A stretch of 35,737 nucleotides of DNA from Terriglobia bacterium (GTDB lineage: Bacteria > Acidobacteriota > Terriglobia > Terriglobales > Acidobacteriaceae). Where the stretch lies: the NCBI GenBank assembly GCA_020073105.1, contig JAIQFW010000061.1, forward strand, positions 1 to 35,737. Reading direction: 5' to 3'. Positions 10,855-16,364 of the stretch are shown here, piece by piece. A model generated the notes under the pieces. That model was not told the DNA's origin. It saw nothing but the letters and a program-made list of their open reading frames with translations, and searched no databases. Each line of letters starts with the position of its first letter. The first letter of the stretch is position 1. A program made the position numbers and the translations under genes.

Positions 10855-12141
10855 CTACCGTTTCACCACGCGCTCCAACACCTCAAAGAATCCTGGATAT
10901 GAAATGACCGCTGCATCTGCTCCGCAAATCAGGGTCTCTCCTTCGGCCCGCAGCGCGGCTATGGCAAAGGCCATGGCGATGCGGTGGTCGCCGTGGGAAT
11001 CAATTTTTGCGCCTCGCAACTTCTGTCCCCCGGGGATCTTCAGCCCATCCTCATGTTCCTCGACCGCTGCCCCCATGGTTCGCAGATTAGTGGCCATGGC
11101 CGCAATGCGATCCGACTCCTTCACGCGCAACTCCCGAGCGTCGCGAATCTCAATGCCGGTAGTGGTATAAGGCGCAATCGCCGCCAGCACGGGGATCTCA
11201 TCGATCAGCATGGCGGTGTGCGGATTCTGGATCGTGACTCCCCGTAACTCGCCTCCTGTGGCCTGCACCGTGCCCACCAGCTCTCCGTGGGTCTCTTCCA
11301 GTTGCGTAACCGATACGCGCAAGCCCATCCCCACCAGCAAGTCCAGGAGGAAGCTTCGCGTCGGGTTCAGTCCCAGACCAGAGATGGTCAGCTGCGATCC
11401 CGGAAACAAGGCAGCTGCGCAGAGAAAAAATGCGGCGCTCGACAAGTCCCCGGGAATCGTGGCTTCGATCGCGCGCAGTTTCTGCCCACCAGCGATGCGG
11501 GATTCATTCCCGTGTTGCTTTACCTCGGCCCCGAACGCGCGCAGAGCCAGTTCTCCGTGATCGCGCGTTCGCAGCGGCTCCTCAACTCGTGTTTCTCCCG
11601 AGGCAAACAATCCGGCAAACAACAACGAGGTCTTCACCTGCGCGCTCGCGACCGGCAGTTTGTACTCAATCGCTCTGAGGCGCGCGCCCGCGATCCGCAA
11701 CGGAGGCCGTCCGCCATCGGCAGCCGTAATCCTGGCGCCCATCATCTCCAGCGGAGTAATCACACGCGCCATGGGCCGCCGGGAGAGCGATTCGTCGCCG
11801 GCCAGTTCGCTGGTGAAATTCTGCCCTGCAAGAACCCCGCTCAGCATGCGCATCGTCGATCCAGAATTCCCGCAGTCGAGGGGCCTGGCCGACGGACGCA
11901 GGTTCGGCCCACGCCCCTGAACCACCACACGGTTCCCTGCACGCTCCCAGTTCACGCCAAGCGACTTGAGGCAGTTCAGGGTGCTGGCGCAATCCGCCCC
12001 GGTCGAAAAGTTCTCCAGAGTGGTAGTGCCCTCGGCGATGCTCGCTAACATGGCGTAGCGATGCGAGATCGACTTGTCCCCCGGTAGGCTCAATGTCCCA
12101 GCAATATTTCGCCCCGGACGAATGATGATTTCTTGCGCCAT
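10855..12141 (-). CDS. aroA: 3-phosphoshikimate 1-carboxyvinyltransferase (EPSP synthase)
   Basis: The protein has 428 residues. It transfers enolpyruvyl from PEP to shikimate-3-phosphate, the sixth step of the shikimate pathway to aromatic amino acids, in the cytoplasm. Diagnostic motifs are LPGDKSISHR with Lys23, LDCGNSGSTMRMLSG (substrate binding) and RELRVKESDRI near the C-terminus, ending with GDHRIAMAFAIAAL. The length is normal. ATG 12141 is chosen over an in-frame GTG at 12171 because homologous proteins begin at this point and because TATAGT ends 9 bases before the ATG, which suggests a leaderless transcript. No Shine-Dalgarno is present. The M48 protease gene follows after 50 bases. 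Confidence 0.97.
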   Translation of the reverse strand: MAQEIIIRPGRNIAGTLSLPGDKSISHRYAMLASIAEGTTTLENFSTGADCASTLNCLKSLGVNWERAGNRVVVQGRGPNLRPSARPLDCGNSGSTMRMLSGVLAGQNFTSELAGDESLSRRPMARVITPLEMMGARITAADGGRPPLRIAGARLRAIEYKLPVASAQVKTSLLFAGLFASGETRVEEPLRTRDHGELALRAFGAEVKQHGNESRIAGGQKLRAIEATIPGDLSSAAFFLCAAALFPGSQLTISGLGLNPTRSFLLDLLVGMGLRVSVTQLEETHGELVGTVQATGGELRGVTIQNPHTAMLIDEIPVLAAIAPYTTTGIEIRDARELRVKESDRIAAMATNLRTMGAAVEEHEDGLKIPGGQKLRGAKIDSHGDHRIAMAFAIAALRAEGETLICGADAAVISYPGFFEVLERVVKR

Positions 12142-12150
12142 GTGTCTATC

Positions 12151-12156
12151 ACTATA
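12151..12156 (-). promoter_or_regulatory. -10 box of aroA (leaderless configuration)
   Basis: TATAGT on the minus strand, with 9 bases between it and the ATG at 12141. A start site 6-9 bases downstream would coincide with the start codon. No convincing -35 was seen. Confidence 0.5.
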
Positions 12157-12269
12157 GCGGAAGAAAACCACGCATTGGGCTGGGGAACGCCGTTGGGGTA
12201 AAGACGTGAGCTAGCTGGCAGAGCCGGACCAAGACTGATTTTTCGCGAAGCGGGGTGGACGATCTAGAC

Positions 12270-12827: not shown

Positions 12828-13628
12828 CTACCCCTTGCTCACTCCATCCATGAATTGTCTGATCATCTGGCCCACTTCTGCGGGCTGCTCCCACGGAGAG
12901 TAATGCCCGGCTTTGGCCACCACTTTCACTTGACTGCCGGCAATGTGCTGCTTCATCAACTCCGCTTCGGCGACGCCGGTGAGAATGTCTTCGTCACCGG
13001 TTACGATCAGCGTCGGCACATTAATGGTCTTTAGGGTCTCCACCGAATCGGGGCGCTCCGCCATGCCGCGCTGTACCATCGCGACGTCCTCTGCCGACAT
13101 CTTGCGCATCATGCGCAACGCGCTTTCGGTGAGATCGGGACGGGTCCGGCGAGTCGTCTCTCCCAGAAGCTTGGGAATCATGCTGGCAAAGAACGGTTCC
13201 GTATCGCGTTCTAGCACGTCCGCTGCCGCCTGCATACGTCCGGCTCTGGCCTCCGGAGTGTCTGCCGGTGCCTTGGTATTGCACAGCACCAGCGCCGCCA
13301 CCCGTCCGCGAAATCTCCGCCAGAACTCGAACAGGACATAGCCGCCAATCGAAACTCCGACAAACGGCGCCCGGCCCACGTGCTCTTCATTCAGAATTCG
13401 GGCCAAATCCACGGCATGTTTCGCCATGGTTGCCGGGCCTTCGCCCACGGCTGACTCGCCGTGTCCTCGCAGATCGGGAAGAATCAGGCGATATTGCTGC
13501 ACGAGCGCCTTGCCTGCAGGTTCCCACAGTTCATGGTTGGCGGGAAAAGGATGGAGAAGAACTACAGGCGGGCCATCACCCATGACTTCGTAGGAGATCT
13601 CTGCGTCTCCGCTACGAACTTGCTTCAT
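12828..13628 (-). CDS. alpha/beta-hydrolase fold protein
   Basis: The protein has 266 residues from ATG 13628, preceded by CGGAGCG. The nucleophile elbow is GVSIGG with Ser93; the acid is in TGDEDIL (Asp212 or Asp214) and the base is His242 in AGHYSPWEQP, in the correct order. The oxyanion region is LLHPFPANHELW, followed by DLRGHGES. The protein has no signal peptide, so it is cytoplasmic. This profile fits the 3-oxoadipate enol-lactonase/carboxylesterase-like group, but the substrate cannot be read from sequence and the neighbours (PspC protein, unknown gene) do not help. All catalytic residues are present. Confidence 0.9.
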   Translation of the reverse strand: MKQVRSGDAEISYEVMGDGPPVVLLHPFPANHELWEPAGKALVQQYRLILPDLRGHGESAVGEGPATMAKHAVDLARILNEEHVGRAPFVGVSIGGYVLFEFWRRFRGRVAALVLCNTKAPADTPEARAGRMQAAADVLERDTEPFFASMIPKLLGETTRRTRPDLTESALRMMRKMSAEDVAMVQRGMAERPDSVETLKTINVPTLIVTGDEDILTGVAEAELMKQHIAGSQVKVVAKAGHYSPWEQPAEVGQMIRQFMDGVSKG

Positions 13629-14044: not shown

Positions 14045-14348
14045 AACCCGCCTCCTGAATCAAGATACGAAATTCAGAATACGCCGGTTCCCCACAGCCG
14101 CCAAGGCAGTGGAGGACGGGGCCTCCCTCACAAGCGCTCACTTATGCAGGTCGGGCTAGAGGTTGACCCTCCCGGCTGGTTTCTGGGCGGTAACTGCCGA
14201 GTAGCTGACCACCCGCCCGGAATACGGCGGCGGGGGATGGCCAGCGCCTCTACTACAAACCCGTTACACGGCCGCTCACAAGATCCGTGTTAACGGAACT
14301 GAAATCAGCGTAGAGTTGAACAATCTCTTATCAGCCAAAAGTGCTCGC
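14045..14348. other. GC-rich spacer before the phosphatase gene
   Basis: About 300 bases without a convincing gene. It holds a potential stem GGGCGG...CCGCCC (about 14184-14216) and a CCGT-GTTA-ACGG inverted repeat (14285-14296) upstream of the phosphatase start. No -10 box or Shine-Dalgarno stands out. Confidence 0.4.
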
Positions 14349-15932
14349 ATGGGCAAAGTAAGACTGCGGATCGCTATCGGCCTGACCCTAGTCGCGATGA
14401 CTTGGGCGGTATCGAGCCAGCAGGTCAAGCGATCTATTGGGAGCGACGCACCTCGAATCCAGCGCGCAGAACCAGTCGATGCAACCACCCTCGCGAAGCG
14501 ACAGCGTTTCTTGGAGATGTTTGCTCGGGCATACTTCCCGGGACGAACCGGCCAACTCCTGATCGTGCCGCGCGAAGGCGACTTCATCACTCGGGCCGAC
14601 GTGTCTTACATGCACGGTTCGCCGTGGACGTATGACGTAGCGATTCCGCTGATGTTCGTGGGTCCCGCGGTAAGAACGGGAAGGTACTCGACTCCGGCCG
14701 TGCAGCAGGACGTTACGTTAACCCTTGCGGCTGCGCTTGGCGTGCAGATGCCTCCCACCACGACAGGCCGCGTATTACCGGTTCTACGCACGGGTTTGGC
14801 TCGACCACGAGTGGTCATGTTGCTCGTCCTGGATGGCATGCGCCGGGATTACTTCGATCGCTACGCCGCGTCCATGCCAACCCTCACCGCCCTGCGCCAG
14901 CGTAGTGCCTGGTTCACTCAGGCACGGGTTAACTTTCTTCCGACCAACACAGCTGTTGGGCACTCGACGCTCTCGACCGGGGCCGATCCTCGCGTGCACG
15001 GAATCACAGGGGTCAGCATGTACGAGCGCAAGCAGCGCCGCCGCCACGACTTTTTTGCCGGAGGAACGCCGCAAGATCTGATGGTATTGACGCTGGCTGA
15101 CGTCTGGCAGCTGGCGACGGCTGGTCGCGCGATCGTATTGGCACAGGGCAGCATCGACCGGGCGGCGACGCCGCTCGCAGGACATGGAGTGTGCCAGTTG
15201 AACGGAGCGCCAGTCGTTCTCGCAAGCTACGATCAGGAGACTGGCAACTGGACCACAAACCCCAACTGTTTCCGGCTGCCTGCATATCTGAAGGATCGCA
15301 ATGCCAAAACACTGTGGCCAGCGAGCGGGGAGTGGATGGGTCACAAAATCGACTCGACCGGGGCGGTGCGATATTCGGCTCTGTTTCCAGCATTCGAAGC
15401 CGATGCGATGACCGCGATGATTGAGCGAGAGCCGCTGGGCGAAGACAACGTTCCAGATCTCATTCTGCTGAACTACAAAGGCGCGGATTTCGTGGGCCAC
15501 AAGTACGGTCCGGATTCGGAAGAGCTGCGCGTCACGCTCGGCGAGATGGATCGTCAGTTGAAGCGGATGCTGAGTGCGTTAGAAGCAAAGGTTGGTAATG
15601 ACTATCTCCTTGCGGTGACCGCGGATCATGGCATGCCATCGAAACCATCGTCGCCGGATCGCCGACACTTGGCACCATCGATCGTAGACCTGTTGCACGA
15701 GAAGTTTGATCCAGAGGCGAAGCAGCTGATTACGTCCTTCGAACCGGAAAACGGCCAGATCTTCGTCGATGAGGACCGGCTGTCGTATCTTGGTCTGACA
15801 TTGCGTGACCTGGTTCATTTCCTCGAATCACAGCCGTTCCTTTTTGCGGTGTTCACAAACGACGATGTGCGCCGAGCCGCTAACGCGATGAAGCCTGCGA
15901 CGCTGACCCGCAGGCACTCGAAGTACAAATAG
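14349..15932 (+). CDS. alkaline-phosphatase-superfamily hydrolase with apparently permuted domain order
   Basis: The protein has 527 residues from ATG 14349; this start gives a signal peptide (MGKVRLRIAIGLTLVAMTWAVSSQQ), while an in-frame TTG at 14316 does not. The core (about 153-510) is type I phosphodiesterase/alkaline phosphatase: metal ligand Asp162 (LLVLDGMRRDYFD), nucleophile Thr201 (PTNTAVGHSTLSTG), Asp380/His384 (GADFVGHKYGPDS), Asp426/His427 (TADHGMP). Residues about 60-148 (FPGRTGQLLIVPREGDF, then YMHGSPWTYDVAIPLMFVGPAV, then DVTLTLAAALGVQMP) look like the segment normally found at the C-terminus, including the last metal ligand His89. The C-terminus stops where that segment would normally begin. 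So the ligand set appears complete but rearranged. It probably hydrolyses a phosphomonoester or diester in the periplasm; the substrate is unknown. Confidence 0.85.
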   Translation: MGKVRLRIAIGLTLVAMTWAVSSQQVKRSIGSDAPRIQRAEPVDATTLAKRQRFLEMFARAYFPGRTGQLLIVPREGDFITRADVSYMHGSPWTYDVAIPLMFVGPAVRTGRYSTPAVQQDVTLTLAAALGVQMPPTTTGRVLPVLRTGLARPRVVMLLVLDGMRRDYFDRYAASMPTLTALRQRSAWFTQARVNFLPTNTAVGHSTLSTGADPRVHGITGVSMYERKQRRRHDFFAGGTPQDLMVLTLADVWQLATAGRAIVLAQGSIDRAATPLAGHGVCQLNGAPVVLASYDQETGNWTTNPNCFRLPAYLKDRNAKTLWPASGEWMGHKIDSTGAVRYSALFPAFEADAMTAMIEREPLGEDNVPDLILLNYKGADFVGHKYGPDSEELRVTLGEMDRQLKRMLSALEAKVGNDYLLAVTADHGMPSKPSSPDRRHLAPSIVDLLHEKFDPEAKQLITSFEPENGQIFVDEDRLSYLGLTLRDLVHFLESQPFLFAVFTNDDVRRAANAMKPATLTRRHSKYK

Positions 15933-16282
15933 AGTCGGCCTGGCAACGTGTCGCTACCGAGCCCGGGCAGTTCTCTTGTCACCAGTTCGCGTTTCCCCAA
16001 GGGGGCTTGTTTGCGCCCGCTCCAGCTCAACACGAGCGTTAGCGACCCGGAATGCCCAGATCGGGGGCCAACTCACACACCGATGGTTGCAACATCCCCT
16101 ATCGGTATCGCGAGCGGAGCAACTGGATCTTGTCCCAGGAGATGCCCGGCAACTAGCAGAAAGGGCCTCCGATGCGGCAAATCAGCGTTGCCGCGTGGAC
16201 TCGAAGACCCGAGGGAATTGAAGGGCTTGCCTGGCGCATATTGCCACCGGAACCGGCTGATTCCTTTCGAATGACTGGCCGA

Positions 16283-16364
16283 CCGGAAGTAATTCTTGGG
16301 TTAGCGCCTGGGGCCTCCCCGTTGTGATGGGCCCCCCTTACCGAACCAAGAAGGTCACTTCCGG
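16283..16364. repeat. long imperfect inverted repeat (82 bases)
   Basis: CCGGAAGT at 16283-16290 pairs with ACTTCCGG at 16357-16364. Further in, TTCTTGG pairs with CCAAGAA and GGGGCC with GGCCCC, separated by small internal loops, around a ~15-base apical loop. It has no T-run. It could be a MITE-like relic or a structured transcript. Confidence 0.6.

Follow-up and report, generated by a model that had tools for sequence, protein, structure and literature searches.

A circularly permuted member of the alkaline phosphatase superfamily, with cassette-like ends, in Acidobacteriota

Contig JAIQFW010000061.1 of a Terriglobia bacterium (assembly GCA_020073105.1), a stretch of 35,737 nucleotides referred to here in full as the window, carries a gene of the alkaline phosphatase superfamily whose parts appear to be circularly permuted. 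The gene (14349-15932, + strand) is a single, uninterrupted open frame of 527 amino acids with an ATG start and an in-frame TTG 33 bases upstream. Residues 1-44 (14349-14480, +) comprise a hydrophobic start that looks by eye like an export signal, and a linker modeled with low confidence (predicted local distance difference test, pLDDT, below 50 for residues 1-39); several relatives have a lipobox-like Cys in their N-terminal starts. Residues 45-147 (14481-14789, +) are, by profile and sequence alignments, a displaced segment that is C-terminal in PafA and PhoK (PafA chain 448-529) and that carries the putative metal ligand H89. The junction of a former C-terminus (TGRVLP) with a former N-terminus (ARPRVV) falls at about residues 140-153 (14766-14807, +), as judged from the junctions of 26 aligned permuted rows and from the best rotation point, 149. 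Residues 148-512 (14790-15884, +) are the core.

The swapped order is apparent in searches of several kinds. With phmmer against the sequences of the PDB, the best match is PafA (5tj3), in three pieces whose order is swapped: residues 148-316 on chain 13-204 (independent E-value, i-value, 2.6e-9), 353-487 on 267-407 (9.8e-10) and 62-143 on 448-529 (0.0024). PhoK (3q3q) is matched in two pieces, query 124-507 and then 59-143 on the end of PhoK. NCBIfam splits the protein likewise: residues 320-497 are matched by positions 254-442 of the PafA model, and residues 17-144 by the closing positions of the PhoY model, 412-539 of its 539. Both parts are homologous to one ancestor of the PafA/PhoK type and their order is swapped, which is what marks a permutant; the displacement of the segment ahead of the core, claimed in an earlier sequence-only reading of this DNA, is borne out by phmmer and NCBIfam alike. 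That reading also asked whether homologues share the order. The segment is ahead of the core in 12/12 permuted-type records (the window, L002 and L037-L046, with L002 and L043 cut by contig ends), and full-length permuted copies are present in 25/193 genomes of one class. It is behind the metal-ligand part in 30/30 other homologous loci (L003-L031 and L047; the nucleophile part of L029 was unmatched).

A further comparison comes from rotation of profiles. These were derived from the 26-row permuted alignment (A2), in native order and at 17 rotation points, and run against 40 ordinary-order proteins. In native order the mean best-domain score is 121.6 bits and one-piece coverage above 90% is reached in 0/40 proteins. 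Cutting at residue 149 raises the mean to 170.1 bits, the top of the 18 arrangements, and gives such coverage in 29/40; the coverage count is 29/40 for cuts throughout 120-180, with the score maximum at 149. At the level of sequence comparison the scan rules out chance as the cause of the swapped-order matches, and it supports the circular permutation proposed earlier. In the 193 genomes just mentioned, the rotated profile (A3) matches ordinary proteins in one piece (5-470, 4-469 and 3-470 of its 471 positions in G617, G616 and G613) and permuted proteins in two pieces with swapped order, while many further matches span only about 190-470 of the profile. The single-contig genome G613 carries one permuted and one ordinary protein.

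An artefact of assembly or frameshifting, or a functionless fusion in which the tail of one tandem gene has run into the head of its neighbor, could produce such an order. The genome of the window is a draft assembly of 308 contigs, one relative (L120) is decayed and there is an N gap in L044/L035. Nevertheless this explanation, which the sequence-only reading had named, in its form of a frameshift or assembly error, among those that would overturn it, is already refuted by the conserved family and retains next to no probability: the order recurs in all 12 records, in a single-contig genome of 7.5 Mb (G613/G733) and, at full length, in the 25 genomes. Further, the ratio of nonsynonymous to synonymous substitution rates (dN/dS) between the window's copy and ten permuted relatives is 0.13-0.24, by which measure the copy is under purifying selection, and tblastn at E 1e-2 finds each part just once in the window. 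Duplication with trimming, raised as a possibility in the sequence-only reading, is the textbook route to circular permutation and may have operated here.

The AlphaFold model of the whole protein, from alignment A2, has a pLDDT of 85.1 and a predicted template modeling (TM) score, pTM, of 0.85. The stretches with pLDDT below 50 are 1-39 and 517-527, and the blocks covering 41-150 average about 89. With VIA-align, model 148-510 superposes on PafA 24-445 with Z 28.1 and a root-mean-square deviation (rmsd) of 3.3 over 348 aligned residues. The superposition on PafA suggested in the sequence-only reading holds for the core, with the segment, 45-147, outside that alignment; within this scope the structural result that the reading had named as contrary to it did not appear. 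Foldseek full-length alignments (TM 0.50, rmsd 7.4) were given no weight, since an aligner that works sequentially is unable to trace a permutation. When the segment is predicted alone, from 6 alignment rows, pLDDT falls to 41.6 and pTM to 0.33; in these models the segment does not behave as a separate domain, though the lone-segment alignment is thinner. By an estimate from the TM formula (d0 about 8.1 Å, 51 residues with pLDDT below 50), the pTM of the whole model would hardly exceed 0.7 if 45-147 were off the core.

The weak single-sequence score of the segment, and a superposition that covers the core only, would also suit an independent N-terminal domain that merely resembles the C-terminal segment, the true C-terminal part being lost and the enzyme inactive or differently built. 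Such a domain would hardly be expected to hold the seventh ligand within an HGSPW.YD motif that is invariant in the 26 permuted rows, to give a profile match reaching the very end of PhoY, or to yield one-piece matches after rotation. Its poor prediction alone and confident prediction with the core, together with the purifying selection, also argue against independence, and this alternative is considered very improbable.

Permutation being the preferred reading, the active site can be compared position by position. PafA literature numbers are chain numbers plus 11, an offset fixed by T79S and N100A of the 5too title, which are visible in the alignment; in this numbering the PafA ligands are D38, D305, H309, D352, H353 and H486. 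The counts are from 66 rows, 26 permuted and 40 ordinary, and the rows are related so that they are not independent (53 ordinary loci were supplied, 13 were dropped by an open-frame or motif filter, and two of the 40 kept rows are identical). All seven metal/nucleophile positions are invariant in 66/66 rows; for the H486 position the invariance is partly built in, because the ordinary rows were picked with a motif that includes it. By alignment, the counterparts in the window protein, all on the + strand, are H89 for H486 (14613-14615), D162 for D38 (14832-14834), T201 for the nucleophile T79, the residue of T79S in the 5too title (14949-14951), D380 and H384 for D305 and H309 (15486-15500), and D426 and H427 for D352 and H353 (15624-15629). 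The sequence-only reading had numbered these seven residues correctly; it missed the size of the family, the cassette described below and the change of a lysine to which we now turn.

PafA residues N100, K162 and R164, which are named in the 5too title, presumably act at the phosphate site. The window protein does not have this set: aligned with them are V222 (15012-15014, +), I269 (15153-15155, +) and R271 (15159-15161, +). At the N100 position the permuted rows have Asn in 17 and Val in 9 (the window's included), and the ordinary rows Asn in 39 and Asp in 1. The K162 position is Lys in 40/40 ordinary and 0/26 permuted rows (Ile 9, Thr 7, Ala 9, Val 1), while the R164 position is Arg in 66/66. 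With neither N100 nor K162 retained in the window protein, its activity as a phosphomonoesterase is predicted with less confidence than its fold. Another lysine, K377 (15477-15479, +), is three residues before the ligand D380; this position is Lys in 26/26 permuted rows versus Ser in 40/40 ordinary ones, and position 375 is Asn in 26/26 permuted rows, with Ser in 38 and Gly in 2 of the ordinary. A role for K377 at the phosphate is plausible, because it is predicted to lie after the strand 370-376 and ahead of the helix 378-386, which bears D380 and H384.

These changes bear on what the enzyme does. Instead of a general phosphomonoesterase it could be a dedicated phosphodiesterase or a hydrolase of other phospho-esters, with the lysine change as the specificity switch; this would narrow the favored explanation and is compatible with it. 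The K162 position is lost, and K377 gained, in every one of the 26 permuted rows, and the best Pfam match, well above its curated cut-off (114.8 bits against 23; E 8.3e-33; residues 156-432 only), is Phosphodiest, PF01663, a phosphodiesterase/nucleotide pyrophosphatase family. Pulling the other way are the R164 position, kept in 26/26, a genetic context that names no substrate, and the structural neighbors: the five highest Z values belong to PafA and SPAP/PhoK, which are named alkaline phosphatases, and the diesterases come after them. A specialized hydrolase of this kind is a serious possibility, though somewhat less likely than not. The window protein also falls outside the PafA equivalog NF042991 of NCBIfam: its match, divided among three stretches, scores 163.6 bits where the cut-off is 650, and the ordinary segment order is lacking.

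When named genomes were scanned for exact peptide patterns, 11 loci came up, of which ten are permuted. In the window's family 5/398 genomes, counting the window's own, have a match at E 1e-40; in a sample of its phylum 12/347 match at E 1e-60, again with its own and with one broken; and in the class of G426 27/193 match at E 1e-40, 25 of them with full-length permuted copies, one with a partial copy that stops at a contig edge and one with a decayed copy. The record of G426 (L046) is titled 'Woeseiaceae', but its class shares a genome with the window's phylum, the title or binning is doubtful, and the class is taken here as within that phylum. L037 is from 'Terriglobia bacterium SRVP_4' (G239), of the same family as the window's genome. 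Within the window's own genome a second permuted copy, L048 (G000 C76 2862-3953), is 92% identical over residues 1-364, has other flanks and is cut by a contig end; a second locus and a strain mixture cannot be told apart. L120 (G583 C32) is a decayed permuted copy without most of the N-terminal segment and broken further on. Samples at E 1e-60 of the phylum of G423 (Verrucomicrobia by title) and of the class of G425 (Gammaproteobacteria by title) gave 1/387 and 1/274, in each case only the genome itself. The family is not claimed outside Acidobacteriota because those two single contigs may be mis-binned or recent transfers. Among viral contigs searched with A1 there were 7 pattern matches, none encoding a relative, and the plasmids searched with P0001 gave 20 records, all below 60% identity and, among the 15 of the 20 that were listed, none with one place covering more than 80% of the query.

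In a tree of the 66 rows, with the permuted ones rotated, a single branch parts the 26 from the 40 (Shimodaira-Hasegawa-like approximate likelihood ratio test, SH-aLRT, 100; unrooted, quick-mode), as expected of a family inherited from one event. Alignment A2 left out L063 and L064 (motif filter), L002 and L043 (cut), L044 (N gap) and six further full-length copies from the 193-genome class; L119 (contig edge) and L120 were also outside the alignment.

The permuted gene also has unusual surroundings at the DNA level. The longest stretch shared with copies in other genera, at about 90-95% identity, is 14193-15990 (with L033/L042); with L032, L034 and L035 it is about 14201/14207-15948. Beyond it (E 1e-5, flanks to 6 kilobases a side) the only similarities are a block of 50 bases in L033/L042 and, in L038, four short matches of 67-78%. 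The boundaries of similarity pointed to inverted ends, CATAAGCGCTAACTTAAG / CTTAAGTTAGCGCTTATG. In the window the left end is CACAAGCGCTCACTTATG (14129-14146), with 3 mismatches to CATAAGCGCTAACTTAAG, and the right end, recognized by eye, is the decayed CTTGGGTTAGCGCCT (16295-16309). Directly outside them are direct repeats resembling a target duplication, GGGGCCTCCC(T) at 14118-14128 and GGGGCCTCCC(C) at 16310-16320. On either strand GGGGCCTCCC occurs in the window at 14118 and 16310 only; for comparison, a 10-mer recurs 1.5-3 kilobases downstream at 80 of 32,637 window positions.

Six copies in Terriglobia can be compared for these features. L155 has both ends, one of them with a single mismatch, and so does L156, whose left end has three; the direct repeats GGGGTGAGCCC and GGGCGCTCTCC respectively flank them on both sides. 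L157 has one clear end, and L158 and L048 have none. In a search of 14 records inverted ends were found in 4 (the window, L042, L038 and L044) and not in the other 10. The units (14118-16320 in the window, 1163-2899 in L155 and 804-2891 in L156) have the phosphatase gene alone between the ends, its frame filling most of each; in all three (decayed in the window) two insertion sequence (IS) ends enclose no transposase, the smaller frames between them not having been searched. The repeats are of the 10-12 base pairs characteristic of an IS231-type cassette. IS231 prefers targets of the form GGG(N)5CCC, and the repeats of the three units, of the form GGG...CCC, fit this. Ends and repeats in three of the six copies fit mobile insertion cassettes of the IS231 type, and on such sequence features the phosphatase gene looks like a mobile insertion cassette in Acidobacteriota.

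The same ends occur elsewhere. They flank a glycoside hydrolase family 1 (GH1) beta-glucosidase gene in L148 (1100-2888, G239 C92) and, on the one side that the record covers, in L150 (2631-4314, G107 C306). These GH1 copies, from two genera and with different neighbors, are 90% identical over 1591 bases; that of L148 is split in two frames and its direct repeat is imperfect. L149 2465-3913 / L166 (G239 C58) is an IS231-like IS of the IS4 family, with the same intact left end and a 462-amino-acid DDE_Tnp_1 transposase, and a calcineurin-like phosphoesterase gene directly follows it. With up to 2 mismatches allowed, the end motif has a low copy number: it was found 7 times versus 2 for the control in G107, 6 versus 2 in G239, 5 versus 2 in G384, 2 versus 1 in G332 and 1 versus 1 in G000; five other genomes had 0, two of them with one control hit. 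A reading of GCGCTAACTTAAG as a repeat common in the window's genome was given up, there being 3 one-mismatch sites versus 17 for the reversed control.

The single-gene distribution in Terriglobia might instead come from ordinary recombination or from mis-binned contigs, with no transposing cassette. All the genomes concerned are drafts, two of the six copies lack recognizable ends and a third has one clear end, the end motif is only modestly above control, and at E 1e-20 the L149 transposase goes unmatched in G000, G107 and G332. It is harder for that explanation to account for the inverted ends that L155 and L156 have on both sides, as does the window in decayed form, and for the direct repeat of about 10-11 bases that lies outside them in all three, for the same ends around a GH1 gene, or for the fit of ends and repeat length to IS231; it is considered unlikely. 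As for the rest of the window, neighboring frames at 10855-12171 and 12828-13628 appear by eye to encode an EPSP (5-enolpyruvylshikimate-3-phosphate) synthase-like protein (AroA) and an alpha/beta-hydrolase, ordinary chromosomal surroundings; no tRNA genes are present in it and PADLOC matched no family there.

PafA is a model enzyme for phosphoryl transfer. The permuted protein shares with it (5tj3, 5too; NF042991) the core fold over 148-510, the seven metal/nucleophile positions and the Arg164 position, and differs from it in having the C-terminal segment at the front, in the loss of Lys at position 162 and gain of K377, and in its low NCBIfam score. PhoK/SPAP (3q3q, 5xwi, 5xwk) have a similar core (Z 24.7-25.7) and an HGSPW motif in the segment, but the ordinary segment order. 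Nucleotide pyrophosphatase/phosphodiesterases and phosphonoacetate hydrolase share the superfamily core (Z about 15-19) and the PF01663 match above cut-off; they too have the ordinary order and are more distant. One study presents PafA as a phosphate-insensitive phosphatase of interest for the environmental release of phosphorus, and says of its homologues in Acidobacteria that activity is yet to be ascertained (PMC8812569). An 'alkaline phosphatase family protein' of 559 amino acids from a soil-phosphatase study has an Acidobacteriaceae protein as its nearest relative, and no mention of permutation was found in that paper (PMC6355987). Among the papers that full-text literature searches listed, an SGNH hydrolase review and an iridovirus genome paper being two of them, none was seen to describe natural circular permutation in the alkaline phosphatase superfamily, in keeping with the sequence-only reading, which knew of no such description; most subscription papers are outside such searches and the absence is not proof.

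For the cassette, the nearest counterparts are MIC231 of Bacillus cereus (PMC3913671) and IS231 (PMC2266710), which share ends of the form CAT-------AA--TAA, 10-12 base pair direct repeats and one passenger gene. Table 1 of the latter lists, for IS231, ends CAT-------AA--TAA--- and repeats of 10-12, and that source, from 2008, has the IS231 subgroup of IS4 almost exclusively in the B. cereus group (PMC2266710). According to the former, passenger cassettes were first found in B. cereus and are mobilized in trans by the IS231A transposase (PMC3913671). The present case differs in being in Acidobacteriota, in its passengers, a permuted phosphatase and a GH1 glycosidase, and in that several ends are decayed.

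Together these comparisons make it very probable that the product is a metal-dependent phosphohydrolase destined for export, with PafA and PhoK as its closest kin, and that a single circular permutation took place in its ancestor, along with a change of the phosphate-site lysine; in part of Terriglobia the gene would have spread as a cassette. By that permutation the roughly 100 residues that end the ordinary protein, a metal-binding His among them, would have come to the front, preceded only by a new export signal. With the old signal shifted to the interior of the chain, a new one would be needed. The old C-terminus would be joined to the old N-terminus by a linker of few residues (TGRVLP-VLRTG-LARPRVV), and the new C-terminus would lie at the point where the displaced segment formerly started. 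The segment is predicted to fold back on the core, where H89 would complete, with D162, T201, D380, H384, D426 and H427, one two-metal site; homology and invariance in sequence and a confident model stand behind this site, while its geometry, the metals and export are inferred. By analogy with PafA, T201 would attack phosphorus to give a phospho-threonine intermediate, released by water. K377, to judge from the correlation of the lysines over the 66 rows, may take over a phosphoryl or substrate contact and so shift specificity; function beyond the fold is likewise an inference. In part of Terriglobia the gene would be carried within IS231-type ends, presumably mobilized in trans by an IS4-family transposase.

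Several points weigh against this reading or parts of it. In a single-sequence search the segment's match to PafA is weak (i-value 0.0024). Most VIA-align rows run over 145-516, the superposition being of the core and PafA from about 446 on without a partner, and the control with the lone segment had 6 alignment rows versus 26 for the whole model. The window protein is without the PafA phosphate-binding residues N100 and K162. The permuted branch is long (1.37) in a tree that is unrooted and quick-mode, and the permutation and the lysine change fall on that one branch, with ten of the 26 rows, the window's included, forming one close group; because of this the correlation of lysine with permutation counts as one pair of events and not as repeated evidence. 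For the cassette, L158 and L048, two of the six copies, are without ends, the end motif is only slightly above control, no right end was found for the L149 IS, and its transposase is in just 2/12 genomes, G239 and, as broken copies, G384.

What is left is a conserved and selected permuted subfamily with a changed active-site lysine, probably mobile in part of its range and apparently of single origin. A bolder proposal is that this would be the first natural circular permutation in the superfamily and that it founded a catalytically distinct subfamily: released from its former ends, the enzyme would have exchanged the K162 lysine for K377, immediately ahead of the helix bearing two metal ligands, with new specificity, and would spread in soil Acidobacteriota as a single-gene cassette moved in trans by an IS231-like transposase. 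This is put forward tentatively, as somewhat less likely than not.

The rearrangement, of which the searches gave no earlier description in the superfamily, has brought the last quarter of the protein to the front with fold and active site, on sequence and model, apparently kept. A natural permutant that keeps all seven metal/nucleophile positions indicates that the fold tolerates being cut at a new place, and the linked lysine change offers a ready experiment on the rebuilding of an active site. Counts of phosphatases in Acidobacteriota may be low because profiles of the ordinary order split the permuted family. The cassette points to a trade in single exported enzymes among soil bacteria, carried by IS231-like elements outside Bacillus.

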